From: Clostridia bacterium UC5.1-1C12
GTDB lineage: Bacteria; Bacillota_I; Bacilli_A; Erysipelotrichales; Erysipelotrichaceae
Direction: 5' to 3'
NCBI GenBank assembly: GCA_001305055.1
Contig: BBZX01000002.1
Span: 186,001 to 250,000 of the forward strand
Length of the DNA stretch: 64,000 nucleotides
The position numbers and the translations under genes are program-made. Under the pieces are notes generated by a model that was not told where the DNA came from, did not search any database, and saw nothing but the letters and a program-made list of their open reading frames with translations. Shown piece after piece: positions 48,126 through 64,000 of this stretch (positions are counted from its first letter, which is position 1; the number at the start of each line of letters is the position of its first letter).

Positions 48126-48673
48126 GCTATACAAATTAAGTTTAACAAAATTGAGCTGAAAACCAGCTCTCTCACTATGGGGATGGAATCATAATGGATG
48201 AAGTCTCCGCCGGTTAGAAAAAGAAATGATGTTTTTCTCCAAGTTTCATCATTTCTTTTTTGCGTTATTATAGAGAATTTCATGTTTCAAGCAATAATGA
48301 AAGTTAGAAAATATTCAGCGGAAATAGAATTCTTATTACAACCGGAAAAGCCCATGAAATAGTATTACTGTTGTTTGCAATACTTTCCCGCGAAGGGTGA
48401 AATGCCCATCCCATGCGGGCTGCGGTGTATTCCTATGCAGCTCCTTGCTCCTTATAACGGCTAAAACAGCTATGCAGGCAATATAATATTAAATCAATAA
48501 GCACAGTAACAGAAGCAATATAATGACAGAGGGTAATTTAAAATAATTTTATTAGTGCATTTTAATATAGAAAAATCAGTATATTTGAAGTTCGGCAAAT
48601 TCAAAAATAAAAGTCATAGATGAATAAGGATTCAACAATCAGCATCTATGACTTCATTTTATGTTTAATAGTC
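48126..48673. other. Intergenic region with terminator-like hairpin and GC-rich element
   Basis: About 550 bases without a gene. At 48218-48261 a hairpin (AAAAAGAAATGATG with CATCATTTCTTTTTT) can act as a terminator in either direction. At 48387-48480 is a block more GC-rich than its surroundings with several self-complementary stretches, described separately. The rest is AT-rich, and I see nothing in it. Confidence 0.55.
48387..48480. ncRNA. Possible structured RNA or conserved element
   Basis: CCCGC (48387-48391) pairs with GCGGG (48415-48419), enclosing GGG/CCC pairings. Next, gctgc (48419-48423) can pair with gcagc (48437-48441). The block ctatgcag occurs twice (48433-48440 and 48470-48477). 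The element stands out in composition from the AT-rich flanks. Short frames on either strand read like peptides I recall as common hypothetical proteins in gut Firmicutes (plus strand GKAHEIVLLLFAILSREG). That memory is not verified. Strand and boundaries are not settled. Confidence 0.35.
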
Positions 48674-56103: not shown

Positions 56104-57521
56104 TGAAGCTGAATGATTTAGGAAAGAATGTTGAAGCAAATGTAGAATGTGTGCTGTCTAAGGCTCACGCGAGTCAGGATAAGCTGAATGCGGTTGTTAC
56201 ATTTGTCGATTGTGAAAAGCAGATTGAAGAAGTTAAAAAGCTGGATCAGAATTTACCGCTTTATGGTGTACCGGTGGCTGTTAAGGATAACATTTCCACG
56301 AAGGGTATTCGTACGACCGCTTCTTCAAGAATTTTGGATAACTATGTGCCGGTTTTTGATGCCCATGTCATTGCGAAGCTGAAAGCGGCAGGGGCCGTTG
56401 TTGCTGTGAAAACAAGCATGGATGAGCTGGGTATGGGCGGAACCAATCTGAATGCCTATACTGGCAAAGTGAACAATCCATATGACTTTGAACGCATCTC
56501 AGGCGGCTCCAGCGGCGGCAGCGCGGCATTAACTGCAGCAGGTGTTGTTGCGTTAGCACTGGGCACGGATACCGGTGACTCGATTCGTAAACCGGCAGCC
56601 TATTGTGGGGTTGTTGGCTTTAAACCTACTTATGGACGCATTTCCCGCTATGGTGTCATTCCATATGCTTCTTCTTTAGACCATGTCGGCTGTTTCACAA
56701 GCTGTGTTAAAGATGCGGCTGTTGCTTTAGAAGTGCTGGCCGGCAGAGATGACCGGGATATGACTTCTTCCTATGAACCGGTAGGTCATTATGCGGAAGC
56801 GTTAAACAGTGACTTAAAAGGAAAGCGTATTGCGGTGCTTGCTAATGTGATGGATTCAATTAAGGATGAGGCGATCTTAAAGAACTTTGACGCTTTATGT
56901 GAAAAGCTGAAAGCCCGCGGTGCGATTGTGGAAAAGGTTAAAATGAATGATGAGCTTTTAGAAACTTTGCTGCCGGTATATCTGATTATTGCGAATGCGG
57001 AGGCATGTGCAAACCATTCTAACCTTGATGGTGTGCGTTTTGGTATGCGTGAAGAGGGAGCTAATCTTGAAGAAATCATGATCAATTCCAGAACTAAGGG
57101 CTTCTCATCCGCAGTGCGCAAGCGTTTTGTTTTGGGCAGCTGGTCACTGTTTGTGGAAAACCAGGAGAAATTGTTCAGAAAGGCTCAGAAGGTACGCCGT
57201 GTGATCGTTGATGCATATGCGGACGTACTAAAGGATTATGACGCGGTTTTGGCAAGTGCTGCCAGCACAACCGCACCGAAACCGGATGAATCGAATGATG
57301 AAAAGATGTCGGATACTTATCTGGTTGCTGAAAACCATATGGTGCTGGGCAATCTGTCCGGTTATCCAAGTATTACGGTACCATGCGGTTTTGCGGAAGG
57401 CCTGCCAATCGGTGTGAATTTGACAGCTAAGGCATTTGATGAACAGAATTTATTGAATATAGCAAAAGCTATTGAAGAAGAAACAGGATTAGAAGGAAAG
57501 ACTGTGGAGGTAAACGCATGA
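56103..57521 (+). CDS. gatA: Asp-tRNA(Asn)/Glu-tRNA(Gln) amidotransferase subunit A
   Basis: Glutamine amidase subunit of 472 residues, intact. It releases ammonia for amidation of Glu-tRNA(Gln) or Asp-tRNA(Asn). The Ser-cisSer-Lys triad is visible: Lys in VAVKDNIST, Ser in [10 protein letters not shown] and nucleophile Ser in [16 protein letters not shown]. The amidase signature region is complete ([20 protein letters not shown]). The usual GGS here is GDS; this also occurs in some Firmicute GatA proteins. The start overlaps the gatC stop by one base, and its stop overlaps gatB by 4 bp (ATGA). Confidence 0.95.
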
Positions 57522-58941
57522 ACTTTGAAACCATCATCGGGATTGAAATCCACTGTGAATTAAAAACCAATACCAAGATGTTCTCCGCCGGACCGGTACG
57601 CTTTGGCGCGGCGCCGAATACTTGTACCAATGAAATTGATCTGGGGATGCCGGGAACGCTGCCATGTTTAAATATGCATGCGGTAGAATTAGCAATCCGT
57701 GCTTGCAGCGGTGCTCACTGTACCATTGATCCATTAATTAAATTTGATCGTAAGAATTACTATTATTCGGATTTGCCAAAGGGCTTCCAGATTACTCAGC
57801 AGTTCCACCCAATCGGCAGCAATGGTTATTTGACTATTGATACTGAAGCCGGTAAGAAAAAGATCCGCATTAACCGCATTCATATGGAAGAGGATACGGC
57901 GAAGCAGTTCCATACTGCTAATGGTACGATGATTGACTTCAACCGTGCCGGTACACCGCTTGTGGAAATCGTTTCTGAACCGGATATCCGCAGCGGGAAG
58001 GAAGCGGCTGCCTATGTGGAACAGCTGCGCAATATGCTTTATTATTTGGGTGTATCAGATTGTAAGATGGAAGAGGGCAGCATGCGCTGTGACGTAAATA
58101 TATCATTGCGTCCTTATGGCTATGACGGCTATGGCACAAAAACAGAAATCAAGAACCTGAATTCATTAAGTAATGTGCAAAAAGCAGTGGATGAAGAAAT
58201 TCAGCGGCAAAGTAAAATCTATCTTGAAGGCGGTACGGTGATTCAGGAAACCCGCCGTTTTGATGAAGCAAGCAAAACGACCATTTCGATGCGTAAAAGG
58301 AAGGCAATGTCGATTATAAATTCTTCCCGGAGCCAAATATCTTCCCGATTCAGCTTGATGAGGCATGGATCAAGAGCATTCAGGAGAATTTAAATGAGGT
58401 ACCTGAACAGCGCAAAGAGCGTTATATGAATCAATATGGCTTGAGCGATTATGACGCCGTTACCTTGACAGCTACGAAGGAATTATCTGATTTCTATGAT
58501 GAGGTAATCAAGCATACCAATGAGTACAAGCTTGCCAGCAACTGGGTGACTACTGAGATGGTGGCTTATCTGAATAAGGAAGGCATCAGTTATGAAGAAA
58601 ATAAACTGCAGCCGGAACATCTTGCGGCAATGATCGATATGATCATTAAGGGTGAGATCTCCGGCAAGCAGGCTAAGGTTGTCTTCGAGGAAATGATGCA
58701 GGGGAAGGACCCAAAAGTTGTTGCGGAAGCGAAGGGCATGAAGCAGATGAGTGATCCGTCTGCAATTCTGGCATTGATTACTGCGGCTATTGAAGCGAAT
58801 CCGCAGTCAGTAACAGACTTTAAAAATGGTAAAGATAAGGCAGTCGGCTTTTTAGTCGGTCAGGTTATGAAGGCCAGCAAGGGCACTGCTAATCCGGCTA
58901 TGACCAATAAGATGGTTCAGGAAGAGCTTAAGAAAAGATAG
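57518..58941 (+). CDS. gatB: Asp-tRNA(Asn)/Glu-tRNA(Gln) amidotransferase subunit B (frameshifted)
   Basis: tRNA-binding and kinase-like subunit of about 475 residues. Conserved segments include [48 protein letters not shown] and [18 protein letters not shown]. The C-terminal GatB/YqeY domain ([20 protein letters not shown]) is complete. A missing A in 58295-58298 gives a premature stop. Restored, [20 protein letters not shown] joins into [20 protein letters not shown]. It ends 47 bp before the next gene. Confidence 0.95.
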
Positions 58942-58988
58942 CCAAACAGCATAATTTGAAGTACAATAGTACGTGAAGGAGTGAGTTG

Positions 58989-59898
58989 ATGGCTAAAAAA
59001 CATCGAATCCCGTTAAGCTGAAAAAGCCGCATGTTATTTTGTGGCTGGGCATTATCATTGTATTGGTACCATGTATCATCCTGGGTGTCGTGCTGATGAA
59101 TTCATTAGAAAACAGCCGTGAACCAGTGGTTGCGGATCGTTTCAAGAATGAGTTGAATCCGGCAATTACCGAAACTGATCTTGCCAGTATCAGAAGTAAT
59201 TTGAATTATGACAATATCGATAATTTGGAAGTAAATCTGATCAGCGCAACGCTTAGGGTGATGATTAATACCAGTGATGATATGGCAGAGGGAGATCTTC
59301 TTTGGATCTTAAATGATGCTGCTGATAAAATAGCGGCGGTACTGCCGATTGAAACCTATTTCACAAACAGTGCTGCGACAAAGATGTATGATCTTGAAAT
59401 TCATGTGTATAACACAACCAAGGGCAGTGAAGCATTGCCGCAGATTTATTATGTGAAAACAAAGAATGCAGCTAATGAGGATTGGGTCATTGATAATTAT
59501 ACCGTGGCAAAAAATCCTGAATTGGCAAAATCAATTCTTGATCCCAATATTACAGATACGGATATTGAAAATGTGAAGGCTGCATTAAGCTATGACAATG
59601 CCGACAGTGTGCGGGTCAGTGTTATAGACAATCTTCTGCGGGTTACCATTGACGCAAATGATACCATTAGTGAAGATGATCTGCTTTGGCTTTTGAATGA
59701 TGCCGCTGAAAGGTTGTTTCAGTATTGCCGATCGAAACATATTTCTCAGCTGCAGAAGATGCTAAAAATATGAATCTTGAGGTTCATGTTTATAATATAG
59801 CGGAGGGATCCGATGATCTGCCGCAGATCTATTATGTAAAGGCAAAGCTGGCTGATGCGGCGGACTGGACGGTTATTAATCAAGCCGAAAGTAATTAA
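58989..59898 (+). CDS. Membrane-anchored protein with two tandem repeats (two frameshifts)
   Basis: Protein of about 303 residues and no recognised family. It has a basic N-terminus (MAKKHRNPVKLKKPHVILWL after correction), one membrane segment (LGIIIVLVPCIILGVVLM), then two copies of an extracytoplasmic repeat of about 125 residues. Shared positions: LNPAITETDLASIRSNLNYD versus LDPNITDTDIENVKAALSYD, EGDLLWILNDAAD versus EDDLLWLLNDAAE, VLPIETYF in both, and LPQIYYVK in both. Lesions: an A missing at 59006-59007 and a G at 59712-59713. The second correction completes repeat two. The start is the ATG at 58989. It follows gatB and is probably co-transcribed. Function unknown. Confidence 0.75.
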
Positions 59899-59904
59899 TA
59901 AGTG

Positions 59905-59928
59905 AAACCTGGAGTGATCCGGGTTTTT
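59905..59928 (+). terminator. Terminator after repeat-protein gene
   Basis: AAACCTGGA and TCCGGGTTT around gtga, followed by TT and T-rich sequence. It ends the pcrA-to-gat block. Confidence 0.8.
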
Positions 59929-59977
59929 CTTGCCAATTGCAGTTTTAAATCAGTTATAAGAGGAAGCAGGTGAGGGA

Positions 59978-60900
59978 ATGGATTACCATCAGAAATTATT
60001 GAGTAAAAACGGTCTTTCAACAATGACATTAGCGAAGGAGTTTTTATTTTGGCAGCTTGGGGAGAAGATACCAACCGTTTCTGATCTAAAAGAGAAAGTA
60101 GGACTTGCACGGGGGACGATTCAAAATTCCATTAAATTCCTTCAGGAAAATGGTGCAATCAAACTTGAATCGAAGGGACATCTGGGTACTTTTCTAATTG
60201 CGAAGAACACGGCGATCTTATTGGCCTTTGCCGGCATTACATCGATTGTCGGAGTTATGCCGCTGCCGTATTCGAAACGCTATGAGGGATTTGCGACGGG
60301 TTTGATTGTAGCGATGGAAAACCAGTATAATTTACCGGCATCCATGGCCTATATGCGGGGAGCGACCAACCGTATCGCGATGCTGCTTGCGGATCGGTAT
60401 GATTTTGCGATTATATCTCGTTATGCGGCGAATAATATTATGAAGAAAAATGATTCTGTACAAATTGTGAAGGCCTTTGGCCGTCATTCTTATTTGTCAG
60501 AGCATGTGATCGTATTTCATGATGCCAAGTGCAAAGCAATTGAAAATGGCATGAAATTGGCATTGATAATGATTCTATCGACCAAAAGGTATTGACCGAG
60601 CATGCGTGTGAAGGCAAACAGGTGGAGTTTGTCCAGGTGGAATATAACCAAATCCTTGAAAAAATCATCAGCGGTGAGCTTGATGCGGCGATTTGGAACG
60701 AAGATGAAATTACTGATAAGCATCTGCATATCAATTATGTATCGCTGCCATCCGATAACATTGATGATACGGAAGCTGTTATGGTAGTGAATACACAGCG
60801 GCGTGAAATGGCTGGCTTGCTGAGTGAACTGATTGATGTACAGATCGTACTGGATAATCAGAAGCTGGTGCTGGAAGGAAAGATTACGCCAAGCTATTAA
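59978..60900 (+). CDS. yhfZ: YhfZ-like transcriptional regulator (frameshifted)
   Basis: Regulator of about 308 residues. The N-terminal winged helix is GntR-like (IPTVSDLKEKVGLARGTIQN, SIKFLQENGAIKLESKGH). The C-terminal ligand-binding domain is of the YhfZ type (MPLPYSKRYEGFATGLIVAM, NRIAMLLADRYDFAIISRYA, ISGELDAAIWNEDEITDKHL). A G missing at 60559-60560 splits it; restored it reads MKLGIDNDSIDQKVLTEHAC. The ATG at 59978 follows ggaagcaggtga. It stands immediately before the promoter and operators of the yhf-like operon and is their likely regulator. Confidence 0.85.
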
Positions 60901-60916
60901 TTTTTAAAATCTAACC

Positions 60917-60943
60917 AAAGGTAACGGTATTTCGTTGCCTTTT
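60917..60943 (+). terminator. Terminator after yhfZ
   Basis: AAAGGTAACG pairs with CGTTGCCTTT around gtattt (one G-U), followed by a short T-rich stretch. Confidence 0.7.
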
Positions 60944-60998
60944 ACTTTACCGGTATTACAGGTATCCGTGTAAGTATGAATACTTACGAATAATAGGG

Positions 60999-61027
60999 TT
61001 GACAATCATGAGGAATCAGTCTATAAT
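60999..61027 (+). promoter_or_regulatory. Sigma-A promoter of yhf-like operon
   Basis: TTGACA (60999-61004), 17-bp spacer, TATAAT (61022-61027), a full consensus match. A perfect 8-bp inverted repeat (gtaagtat-ga-atacttac, 60970-60987) lies just upstream of the -35. Confidence 0.88.
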
Positions 61028-61029
61028 TT

Positions 61030-61122
61030 ATTTGTACAAAAAATGTATATTGAAAATCATTACTATGAATTTGCATGATGCAAATCTTATTCATTCAATC
61101 AATATACAAAAAAATGTATATT
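61030..61122 (+). promoter_or_regulatory. Paired operator-like sites in yhf leader
   Basis: Two related elements lie about 70 bp apart. The first, 61033-61051, reads tgtacaaaaaatgtatatt. The second, 61102-61122, holds a perfect inverted repeat ATATACA-AAAAA-TGTATAT. Half-sites TGTAT/ATACA around an A-rich core resemble GntR-family operators. The first covers the expected transcription start and the second sits before the ribosome site. A YhfZ dimer is the obvious candidate. Confidence 0.65.
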
Positions 61123-61135
61123 AAGAGGAGGAGTT

Positions 61136-61477
61136 ATGCTGAAGGAGCGTATATCGATTTTAGAAAATGCAGGAGTTATCTCAGCGGAAGTTGCAGAGTT
61201 TGTGAACCGAGTCATCGATGAGGATCTGGTGACATTCACGGATAAAGAAAGTGTTCTTGAAATGTTTACGACTCACTTGGCGATGGCTGCCCAACGGATA
61301 TGCACAGGTCAGGAAGTAGAAACATTAGATGAGAGCATCTGGAATGAAGTAGTGAATAGTTCGGGTATTCATCAGGCAGAAAAGCTTTATGAAACAGTGA
61401 CGGAAAAGGCGCCTTGTACTTTCCCGGAAGGTGAGAAGCGCTTTCTGCTGATGCATCTATGCAATCTATATCAATAA
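61136..61477 (+). CDS. yhfY: PRD domain protein (YhfY-like)
   Basis: Protein of 113 residues formed by one PTS regulation domain (PRD) without a DNA-binding part. Segments are ILENAGVISAEVAEFVNRVI, then MFTTHLAMAAQRICTGQEVE with the PRD-type His, and FPEGEKRFLLMHLCNLYQ. E. coli YhfY has the same composition. The ATG at 61136 follows agaggagg. It is the first gene of the operon behind the consensus promoter. The role is unknown; it may sense phosphorylation state. Confidence 0.8.
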   Translation: MLKERISILENAGVISAEVAEFVNRVIDEDLVTFTDKESVLEMFTTHLAMAAQRICTGQEVETLDESIWNEVVNSSGIHQAEKLYETVTEKAPCTFPEGEKRFLLMHLCNLYQ

Positions 61478-61495
61478 GAAAGGAGGATTTGCGGG

Positions 61496-61863
61496 ATGGT
61501 GAGAATCGTAGTCGGCGGTCAGATCAATAAGCAGGAAATTCATGATTTTCTTCAAAAAATTATGAAGGAATTGAATTAGCAATTAAGAATGATCTGGACG
61601 CAGTAAATGCTTTAAAGATGGGGAAGTTTGATTATTATGTAGGTGCCTGTAATACGGGCGGCGGCGGTGCATTGGCAATGGCAATTGCTTTATTGGGACA
61701 GAATCAATGTAAGACAATTTCAATGCCGGGCAAGGTTTTTCCTGATGAGGAAATCATTGCAGCTGTTAAGGAGGGCAAAAAAGCATTTGGATTTACAGCC
61801 CAGCATGCTGAACAGGTACTGCCTGTTCTGATGAAAGCTATTCTAGAAAAAATGGAGGACTAG
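61496..61863 (+). CDS. yhfU: YhfU/DUF2620-like protein (frameshifted)
   Basis: Small soluble protein of about 122 residues. The frame starts at the ATG 61496 after ggattt and reads MVRIVVGGQINKQEIHDFLQ. It breaks in the A-run 61554-61559. One more A gives FLQKNYEGIELAIKNDLDAV and joins KMGKFDYYVGACNTGGGGAL. The end (KAFGFTAQHAEQVLPVLMKA) is like E. coli YhfU. The Gly-rich CNTGGGGAL loop suggests nucleotide or phosphate binding, but no function is known. It is followed 3 bp later by yhfT, as in E. coli where the two genes are adjacent. Confidence 0.85.
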
Positions 61864-61866
61864 AAA

Positions 61867-63174
61867 ATGAAGTATATTATCATCGCAGCGATTGGTGCGT
61901 TGGCATCAATTCTGGCGAATAAGGGGATTGCAGTGTTCAACGATGGTTTCAGACCTATCGTACCGCAGTATTTTGACGGACAGATTTCTCGTAAAGAATT
62001 AGCAACGATGAGCTTCGCAATCAGCTTTGGTTTGGTTATCGGCTTCGGTATTCCAACCTCGATTGCGGCTACGATTATATTAATTCACTGTCTGCTTCTG
62101 ACAACGGATATCATTGGTACATGGTGTCCTGATAATAATAAAGGAACGATCATGGCCGGTGTCATCGGTGCGCTGTATGGCTTGCTGATTCTAATCGGAC
62201 TTGATTTTGTCGTAACAGCATTTAGTTATCTGCCATATAATTTCCTTGATGCATTAGGCAGCGTTTCTAAATATGTAACGGTTGCGTTTGCCATTTTCCC
62301 TGCCCTTGCTGTTGCTTATCAGCATGGATTCAAAAAAGGTGCTATTACTGCATGTATCGTTGTTGCCGTTTATTTCCTAGTTAAGAAGTTTGGCGTTATT
62401 ACCGTTGGTGAAGGCGTTAGTATCGCATTGAATGGCGAAGGTATGGCGATGCTGGCCGGTACGATCGCGATGCTTGCTTTCGCAGCGGCAGTGAAGGCTG
62501 AAGGCGGCAGTGCAAATACTGATTTAGTCAATGTTTTCTCTGAAAAAGTAGCTAAGATCAGAAAGAATTGGTTCCTGCTTGCTATCATGGGCGGCTTGCT
62601 TGCCTGCGGTACAAGCATGGCAATGATTGCCGGTGACCCAATTTCATTAGCTTTAGTCAGCAATGGCGCAATTTCAGAAGCCGCAATGGCTGCGGCAGCC
62701 CGTGCTATCGGCTTTATTCCTTTAGTATTCACAACAGCCATCGTTACCGGTGTTTATGGACCGGCCGGCTGTACGTTTGTCTTCGTTATGGGTCTGTTAT
62801 TCTTCAATAATCCATTAGTTGCAATGATTGCCGGCGCAGCGGTCATGATTATTGAATTATTGCTGATCAATGTTTTCGCAAAAGGCATGGATAAATTCCC
62901 TGGTGTAAAAGACATGGGTGAGCATATCCGTACTTCAATGAATAAAGTCTTAGAGGTTGCCTTACTTGTTGGTGCTGTCGCATCAGCTGAAGCTATGTCT
63001 GCGGCAGTTGGTCTAAGCGGTATCGGTGCATTATTCGTTATTGGATGTCTGCTGCTGAACCGTGTTTCCAAGAAACCGATTGTTGAACTTGCCGTTGGAC
63101 CGGTTGCTTGTATTCTCTATGGTATTTTGATTAACCTGCTGGTTGTTATTCAATTAGTAACACTGGTAGCTTAA
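61867..63174 (+). CDS. yhfT: YhfT-like membrane protein
   Basis: Integral membrane protein of 435 residues with about twelve hydrophobic segments and many small residues. Family-like pieces: LANKGIAVFNDGFRPIVPQY near the N-terminus, SFAISFGLVIGFGIPTSIAA, DIIGTWCPDNNKGTIMAGVI, and VYGPAGCTFVFVMGLLFFNN. Intact. E. coli YhfT belongs to the same uncharacterised group and is thought to be a transporter. The ATG at 61867 lies 3 bp after yhfU. It probably imports the compound metabolised by the rest of the operon. Confidence 0.87.
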   Translation: MKYIIIAAIGALASILANKGIAVFNDGFRPIVPQYFDGQISRKELATMSFAISFGLVIGFGIPTSIAATIILIHCLLLTTDIIGTWCPDNNKGTIMAGVIGALYGLLILIGLDFVVTAFSYLPYNFLDALGSVSKYVTVAFAIFPALAVAYQHGFKKGAITACIVVAVYFLVKKFGVITVGEGVSIALNGEGMAMLAGTIAMLAFAAAVKAEGGSANTDLVNVFSEKVAKIRKNWFLLAIMGGLLACGTSMAMIAGDPISLALVSNGAISEAAMAAAARAIGFIPLVFTTAIVTGVYGPAGCTFVFVMGLLFFNNPLVAMIAGAAVMIIELLLINVFAKGMDKFPGVKDMGEHIRTSMNKVLEVALLVGAVASAEAMSAAVGLSGIGALFVIGCLLLNRVSKKPIVELAVGPVACILYGILINLLVVIQLVTLVA

Positions 63175-63243
63175 ATTTCATGAAAATGGCGGGTAAAGTG
63201 GCAATCACTTGCTCGTCATTTATTTTAAGAAAGGAGTACACGA

Positions 63244-64000
63244 ATGAAATTAAACGACGGATATACGATGATGCATGAGCATATGCATATTGATTTATCA
63301 GGTGTGAAAAAAGATCAGGATTGCTGTCTTGACTGTTATGATGAAATTTGTGCTGAATTAAAACAGCTGTATAAACAGGGTGTCCGCAATATCTGGGAAG
63401 TAACAAATATTGGTATGGGCAGAGATATCAGTACGATTTTAAAGCTTGAAGAAGCGACAGGGATTCATTTTATGATTTCTACCGGCTGTTATAAAGATCC
63501 ATTCATCCCTGAAGCAATGAGTGCATTCGATACAGAGAAGCTTGCTGAATTGATGATCAGAGAAATCAATGAGGGTATTGAAGGAACCGGTGTTAAAGCA
63601 GATGCGATCGGTGAAATCGGAACCAGTAAAAATGAGTGGACAGAAAATGAAAGAAAGCTGTTTGACGCCGCCATAATTGCACATAGTGCAACACATAAAC
63701 CTATTTATACTCATACAACGCTTGCTACACTGGCGAAGGAACAGGCTGATTATCTGGTAAGCCATGGTGCTGATCCTACGAAGGTAGTTATCGGTCATGT
63801 TGATTTAAGCGGCGATCTTGATTTCATTCGTTCTGTACTGTCAACCGGGGTAACCGTTGGTTTTGATACGATCGGCAAGAATAATTATCTGCCTGATCAG
63901 AAACGTATCGAATTTCTGCTTGCATTAGAAAAGGAGGGCTTGCTGAATCAGGTGGTGTTATCTGAGGATCTGACTAGAAAATCACATCTTAAATATAAGG
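63244..64000 (+). CDS. php: Phosphotriesterase homology protein (Php), partial at window end
   Basis: Amidohydrolase-fold enzyme, open for 252 codons and cut by the window end. The two-metal site is nearly complete: HxH in MMHEHMHIDL, Glu in AIGEIGTS, His in IYTHTT, His in VIGHVDLSGD, and Asp in LSEDLTRKS. This is the set found in E. coli PHP, where a Glu replaces the carboxylated Lys of phosphotriesterases. The ATG at 63244 follows aaggag. Known PHP relatives hydrolyse lactones or esters; the natural substrate of this branch is unknown. In E. coli, yhfW, yhfX and yhfS would complete the set, and they may follow outside the window. Confidence 0.9.
   Translation, partial: MKLNDGYTMMHEHMHIDLSGVKKDQDCCLDCYDEICAELKQLYKQGVRNIWEVTNIGMGRDISTILKLEEATGIHFMISTGCYKDPFIPEAMSAFDTEKLAELMIREINEGIEGTGVKADAIGEIGTSKNEWTENERKLFDAAIIAHSATHKPIYTHTTLATLAKEQADYLVSHGADPTKVVIGHVDLSGDLDFIRSVLSTGVTVGFDTIGKNNYLPDQKRIEFLLALEKEGLLNQVVLSEDLTRKSHLKYK

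Follow-up and report, generated by a model that had tools for sequence, protein, structure and literature searches.

We analysed a stretch of 64,000 nucleotides from Clostridia bacterium UC5.1-1C12 (contig BBZX01000002.1), referred to below as the window. From position 59978 to the end of the window, the genes yhfZ, yhfY (encoding a PRD protein), yhfU (DUF2620), yhfT, and php were found in this order, all on the + strand. The Pfam and NCBIfam assignments agreed with the gene set named in a preliminary description of this DNA, and the five co-stranded genes constitute a yhf operon of the Escherichia coli type. We tentatively read this operon as a YhfZ-controlled salvage pathway for an imported (amino)sugar phosphate substituted with an amino acid or an amide, a reading that we regard as possible rather than probable. 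It is proposed because genes for a mutase, a predicted isomerase, two pyridoxal phosphate (PLP) enzymes, a metallohydrolase, an amidase, and a membrane protein adjoin a single regulator gene, and because in some species the set is extended by genes for NagB and a wall-type hydrolase that carry the palindrome found at the operon. The yhf gene set was already known; the operator family, the amidase, the YhfU fold, and the accessory genes appear to be new.

The presumed operator family and the operon in relatives

The spacing of the operator half-sites was derived from the window and then searched in 102 other loci. The data showed that a conserved palindrome, AATATACA-N6-TGTATATT (consensus AATATACAAAATATTGTATATT), lies 5' of operon genes in 60 of the 102 loci. 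Within 250 bp upstream of an operon gene, TACA-N6-TGTA was present at 89 sites in these 60 loci, and 171 such sites were found overall. Spacers of 3, 4, 5, 7, 8, and 9 bases gave 6, 5, 4, 4, 17, and 1 upstream sites, respectively, in the same loci. The gene following the 89 sites was yhfZ (33), yhfY (27), yhfU (17), the amidase gene (7), or an internal gene (5). Among 603 other genes in these loci, only five had a site scoring at least 20 within 300 bp, and each of them, by position, shares its site with a yhf or accessory gene. Genome-wide, sites with at most one mismatch were enriched (18 versus 4 in 7 genomes), with 13 at the yhf locus.

In the window, two sites with at most two mismatches to the conserved palindrome were found versus 0.05 expected. 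The site at 61101-61122 scored 27.4, compared with 13.1 for the next best in the 64 kb and 20.0 for the 10th percentile of the training sites, and it is the only one in the window that scores like most known sites. The consensus promoter and operators that the preliminary description had placed directly behind yhfZ were confirmed as a sigma-70 promoter and two palindromes (Table 1). This promoter was the best of 20 promoter-like matches in 58900-64000, where shuffled sequences yielded 14.8 matches of any quality. The two window palindromes are nearly identical and 70 bp apart; paired sites 59-67 bp apart were found in L004, L030-L032, L034, L154, and L157, and other spacings occur.

The E. coli K-12 operon yhfZYXW-php-yhfUTS (b3383-b3376) has counterparts of all five window genes, and its Php is 49% identical to the window Php over 245 residues. 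It also carries a related palindrome before yhfZ and before yhfX. In MG1655, AATATTCA-N6-TGAATATT was found between yhfY and yhfX with no mismatch and just 5' of yhfZ with one mismatch; 0.04 occurrences of this variant were expected by chance, which is an optimistic figure because the pattern was chosen after both places had been seen. The E. coli operon differs from the window family in its gene order and in its half-site (TTCA versus TACA), and genes for the amidase, the PBP4B-like protein, and NagB are all lacking from its locus. The palindrome is probably bound by YhfZ, because the site precedes yhfZ itself and accompanies the operon. Close YhfZ homologues bear Pfam domains that we read, from their accessions, as substrate-binding-protein domains, as expected for a ligand-sensing regulator.

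For comparison of gene content, one-per-species genomes were searched with YhfT, and the best 80 of 220 relatives were kept, a set biased to close relatives; one Cetobacterium plasmid locus was added, giving 81 loci. Among these, yhfS was present in 79, yhfX in 77, php in 77, yhfT in 77, yhfZ in 76, yhfW in 71, yhfU in 70, and yhfY in 63, counts that are lower bounds since many contigs are cut and long antisense open reading frames (ORFs) mask short genes in ORF picking. In the loci nearest by identity, L004 and L006, yhfT is followed by php-amidase-yhfS-yhfX-yhfW, as the preliminary description had anticipated for yhfW, yhfX, and yhfS. Because most of the 81 loci carry yhfS, yhfX, and yhfW, the operon very probably continues beyond position 64000, judging from gene order in these relatives. 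No yhfS was recognised in Vibrio halioticoli (L003) or in one genome of the family (L154). The distribution was patchy: DUF2620 was present in 3 of 199 genomes of one phylum (the centre genome counted) and YhfT in 39 of 244 genomes of one family, the G001 family.

Twenty regions from the YhfT genomes of this family, 19 or 20 kb long where the contig allowed, were also examined, and a second operon type was found among them, with the order yhfZ-small CxxC membrane-like protein-yhfY-yhfT-yhfU-php-yhfX-amidase-yhfS-yhfW. The small protein of these type II operons (L140-L153) has CxxC pairs and membrane-like segments. In L147, L148, L149, and L153, yhfW is followed by another php copy and by an additional, longer yhfS-like gene of about 450 residues. 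In V. halioticoli, the region immediately before yhfZ (L003:3082-7157) encodes a lactose/cellobiose-family phosphotransferase system (PTS), a DUF7916 protein, and a porin.

Core and accessory proteins

A small amidase-signature protein (about 330-345 residues) was encoded as a ninth gene in 57 of the 81 loci, and in 40 of the 56 loci of at least 19 kb. The gene is found on either side of php, behind yhfW, or divergent from yhfU. At E 0.01, each of the 30 aligned members matched Pfam Amidase and nothing else. The best member reached E 9e-11 with PF01425, and the bit scores listed for two members were 20.8 and 21.3 against a cut-off of 27 bits. Residues K36, S86-S88, and S110 were invariant in 30 rows, which fits the Lys-Ser-Ser catalytic triad that we take them to form, and the serine region aligned to the window GatA (hhalign E 1e-4, probability 55%). 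In the 244 genomes of the G001 family the amidase was found in 33, of which 31 are among the 39 YhfT genomes; in the remaining two (G308 and G320) it lies beside other yhf genes. Sixteen of the 20 regions described above contained it, the exceptions being L154, L155, L156, and L159.

Structure prediction gave YhfU (DUF2620) the fold of ribose-5-phosphate isomerase B (RpiB). Its CxTGxG motif, in which C54, T56, G57, and G59 did not vary across 32 rows, could be aligned with that of RpiB, and we equate the motif Cys with the catalytic Cys of RpiB. E. coli YhfU fell below the cut-off of the RpiB/LacAB family PF02502 (E 0.065, 13.6 bits versus 24.7), and YhfU was not assigned to that family for this reason. 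The two also differ in length, about 145 residues in RpiB/LacAB and about 118 in YhfU.

The presumed active-site residues of the other core enzymes, whose roles we assigned from general knowledge of the families, were conserved throughout after length limits had removed 0 of 79 Php, 6 of 79 YhfX, 4 of 80 YhfS, and 3 of 73 YhfW sequences. All 79 Php sequences kept the metal ligands, and the PLP lysine was kept by all 73 YhfX and all 76 YhfS sequences. All 70 YhfW sequences kept the metal and nucleophile positions; residue 84 was Thr or Ser, and residue 89 was Gln. YhfW is related to phosphopentomutases (DeoB, of the alkaline phosphatase superfamily) with solved structures. Php is related to lactonases and matched the phospho-furanose lactonase model at E 7e-19, and YhfS is distantly related to the methionine gamma-lyase and cysteine desulfurase models. 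The YhfT model was fair (predicted local distance difference test score 82.6) and mainly helical. Several yhf proteins have solved structures (4J8L, 4KBX, 1BF6/4LEF, and 2OZZ).

A gene for a PBP4B-like hydrolase was found in or beside the operon in 10 of the 81 loci: in the yhfZ/yhfY gap, in the yhfU/yhfT gap, before yhfZ or yhfY, after yhfW or nagB, or divergent. The PBP4B model NF002968 was the best NCBIfam model for all ten proteins (221-309 bits). All ten fell under its cut-off of 385 bits, and a full PBP4B/YfeW assignment was dropped in favour of "PBP4B-like". PF00144 was present in seven of seven tested, and the proteins appear, by eye, to be secreted. Four of the ten genes (L006, L011, L060, and L068) have their own palindrome. 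In L060, the divergent PBP4B-like gene has its palindrome region in common with the gene of a small surface-type protein (1998-2801).

In 5 of the 81 loci a nagB gene directly follows yhfW, at gaps of 16-192 bp. These copies belong to four lineages with 37-52% identity and include one close pair, the L015 protein being 93% identical to that of L014. All four proteins tested (L014, L056, L073, and L082) passed the cut-off of the NagB model TIGR00502 (248-310 bits versus 236.9). The nagB gene of L056 has its own palindrome; in the 5.9-Mb genome that contains it (G452), sites with no more than one mismatch occur just twice, at the start of yhfY and before nagB. Counting both kinds of accessory gene, 5 of 15 have their own palindrome.

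The copy in the window

The features of the window are listed in Table 1. The closest YhfT in the protein collection was 97% identical, and Lachnospiraceae, Anaerorhabdus, and Erysipelotrichaceae were named among the nearer matches, which makes a host among the Firmicutes of this neighbourhood probable. The reading frame changes once in yhfZ (near 60550-60595) and once in yhfU (near 61546-61579), features not mentioned in the preliminary description. Because the yhfZ frame is broken, its two pieces each scored less than the full-length cut-off of NF041241 (253.9 and 96.3 bits versus 260 bits).

Table 1. Coordinates of yhf genes and regulatory elements in the window
Feature	Position	Strand	Basis
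yhfZ, first piece (HTH_41 and start of YhfZ_C)	59978..60595	+	PF14502 E 5e-16, PF14503 E 1e-35; frame breaks here
yhfZ, second piece in other frame (rest of YhfZ_C)	60550..60900	+	PF14503 E 3e-25 on 60592-60897
Sigma-70 promoter of operon, TTGACA-17-TATAAT	60999..61027	+	12/12 consensus positions
Operator-like palindrome TACA-N5-TGTA, just 3' of promoter	61035..61047	.	Spacer one base shorter than conserved N6
Presumed YhfZ operator AATATACAAAAAAATGTATATT	61101..61122	.	0 mismatches to conserved palindrome
yhfY, stand-alone PRD protein	61136..61477	+	PF00874 E 1e-8
yhfU (DUF2620), N-terminal piece, frame break after	61496..61579	+	Translation resembles N-terminus of relatives
yhfU (DUF2620), remainder in other frame, CNTGGGGAL motif	61546..61863	+	PF10941 E 2e-31 on 61618-61860
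yhfT, polytopic membrane protein, presumed transporter	61867..63174	+	PF10797 E 2e-150; mainly helical model
php, phosphotriesterase-homology metallohydrolase, cut by window end at 64000	63244..64000	+	PF02126 E 3e-68

It is improbable that these breaks mean that the operon is decaying and possibly non-functional in this strain. The three breaks do cluster between 57.5 and 61.9 kb, the third being in the upstream gatB, which is split at 57518-58941 into two ORFs (GatB_N and GatB_Yqey), and remnants of yhf operons exist in other genomes (yhfX without nearby yhf genes in L160-L162, and yhfZ with yhfX in L164). However, gatB is expected to be essential, the yhfU break adjoins an A run, where sequencing indels often occur, and an intact YhfZ of 307 residues, 97% identical over the compared part, exists in other assemblies. 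The full-length copies leave both assembly error and strain-level decay possible, and the closeness of the gatB break to those in yhfZ and yhfU suggests indel errors in the assembly.

These yhfX genes of L160-L162 and L164 lie at one conserved locus, and may be remnants of lost operons or may point to a separate role of YhfX. In two Lacrimispora genomes (L020 and L021), yhfW is divided into two ORFs. Three further elements were observed in the window: an ORF at 59039-59897 with no Pfam family, a signal-like start, and two similar segments, which apparently continues in another frame; a perfect 8-bp inverted repeat, ATTTGCAT-G-ATGCAAAT, at 61069-61085 between both YhfZ-type sites, possibly the site of a second regulator; and a weaker YhfZ-type palindrome match at 48564-48585 (two mismatches, score 9.3).

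Possible function of the operon

In the salvage pathway that we tentatively propose, YhfZ would repress the operon through the palindromes and be released by a pathway intermediate. YhfT would import a small conjugate in which an (amino)sugar phosphate bears an amide or is linked to an amino acid, and in some species the secreted PBP4B-like hydrolase would first trim a larger, wall-type substrate. The amidase and Php would then cleave the amide and the (phospho)ester or lactone bonds of the conjugate, and YhfX (racemase/aldolase-like) and YhfS (a fold-type I PLP enzyme) would convert the amino-acid part. On the sugar part, YhfW would shift the phosphate, YhfU would isomerise an aldose phosphate to a ketose phosphate, and NagB would strip the nitrogen where the sugar is an amino sugar.

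Several results weigh against this proposal. The similarity between YhfU and RpiB was weak at the sequence level (PDB search E 0.045; hhalign E 0.005, probability 7%), and YhfU does not keep the N, K, and R found almost without exception in the compared RpiB set. YhfW, which has its own model (NF009049), has GHQE where DeoB presumably has GHWE, that is, Gln where we would expect the Trp of phosphopentomutase. The YhfT model gave no convincing match to any known fold. No kinase was seen in the core operon, and the phosphate must therefore come from elsewhere or with the substrate. No amidase was recognised in 16 of the 56 loci of at least 19 kb or in 8 of the 39 YhfT genomes of the G001 family, and the E. 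coli operon has none. Genes for the PBP4B-like protein and NagB are likewise missing from the E. coli yhf locus and were present in a minority of the 81 loci. In L006, the palindrome before the PBP4B-like gene sits at the expected place of the operon operator and may be the operon's own. The short core TACAAWWWWWTGTA was not enriched genome-wide (39 forward versus 39 in the reversed control, 10 genomes). Given that only a minority of loci have the accessory genes, and that E. coli lacks both these and the amidase, neither an amino sugar nor wall material is required as the core substrate, and the E. coli core operon could act on a simpler compound.

The lack of a sugar kinase in the core would also suit an operon that makes an envelope or signalling compound, in which YhfW would move the phosphate of a sugar from position 5 or 6 to position 1, a D- or modified amino acid would come from YhfX and YhfS, YhfT would export the product, and the PBP4B-like enzyme would act outside. 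Phosphomutases also feed biosynthesis, and apparently secreted PBP4B-like enzymes together with a membrane protein are compatible with export. We nevertheless consider such a synthesis unlikely, as the hydrolase-rich gene content, the degradative NagB, and the patchy distribution fit catabolism better, and the domains of close YhfZ homologues suit a regulator that senses a ligand. Catabolism of an unsubstituted lactone, ester, or carbamate, with Php acting as a lactonase-type enzyme, the PLP enzymes acting on homoserine-like products, and YhfU and YhfW not acting on sugar phosphates, would agree with the lactonase relatives of Php and the distant kinship of YhfS to methionine gamma-lyase and cysteine desulfurase. 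It seems quite unlikely, since most loci retain YhfW and YhfU with Php, and the mutase positions and the CxTGxG motif are kept. Equally slight is the chance that the operon salvages Amadori-type (fructosamine or ribulosamine) amino acids or another sugar-lysine compound. The E. coli operon lies beside frlABCDR, with frlR adjoining yhfS in MG1655, and in one genome (L165) a galactosamine-type PTS and a GlmS/NagB-II-like protein are encoded next to yhfW-yhfS-amidase. However, no more than these two cases were seen, frlR and yhfS are convergent, and the L165 protein matches the GlmS and NagB-II models and no deglycase model.

The preliminary description had suggested catabolism of a specific ester, lactone, or phosphorylated compound, which fits the present data, if only in general terms. 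Evidence beyond its reach, namely the amidase, the conservation of the operator, the predicted RpiB-like fold of YhfU, and the genes for the PBP4B-like protein and NagB, which have this operator in some genomes, jointly points to a substrate in which an (amino)sugar phosphate is linked to an amino acid or amide. A wider proposal, which we consider doubtful, is that yhf is an unrecognised salvage route, parallel to that for N-acetylmuramic acid (MurNAc), for (amino)sugar phosphates that carry an aminoacyl or amide group and have been released from bacterial envelopes. DUF2620/YhfU would be its sugar-phosphate isomerase and YhfW its phosphomutase, and in species that encounter the polymeric form the YhfZ regulon would recruit NagB and the secreted PBP4B-like hydrolase. 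In E. coli, the PBP4B gene yfeW belongs to the MurNAc operon murQ-murP-yfeW (PMC5061867). As in some yhf loci, a PBP4B gene there accompanies a sugar-salvage system; the operon, as described in the available part of that source, is without the core yhf enzymes. In the accessible text of another report, DUF2620 and YhfX are merely listed among the genes marking a group of clinical L. rhamnosus isolates (PMC7513527).

The yhf operon is present in the best-studied bacterium and has solved structures, yet the literature searched assigned no function to it, in line with the view of the preliminary description that its role is not established. The amidase, NagB, and PBP4B-like genes narrow the class of substrate. 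The palindrome provides a ready reporter for the inducer, the predicted YhfU fold suggests an assay, and the two palindromes of E. coli K-12 can be tested at once.

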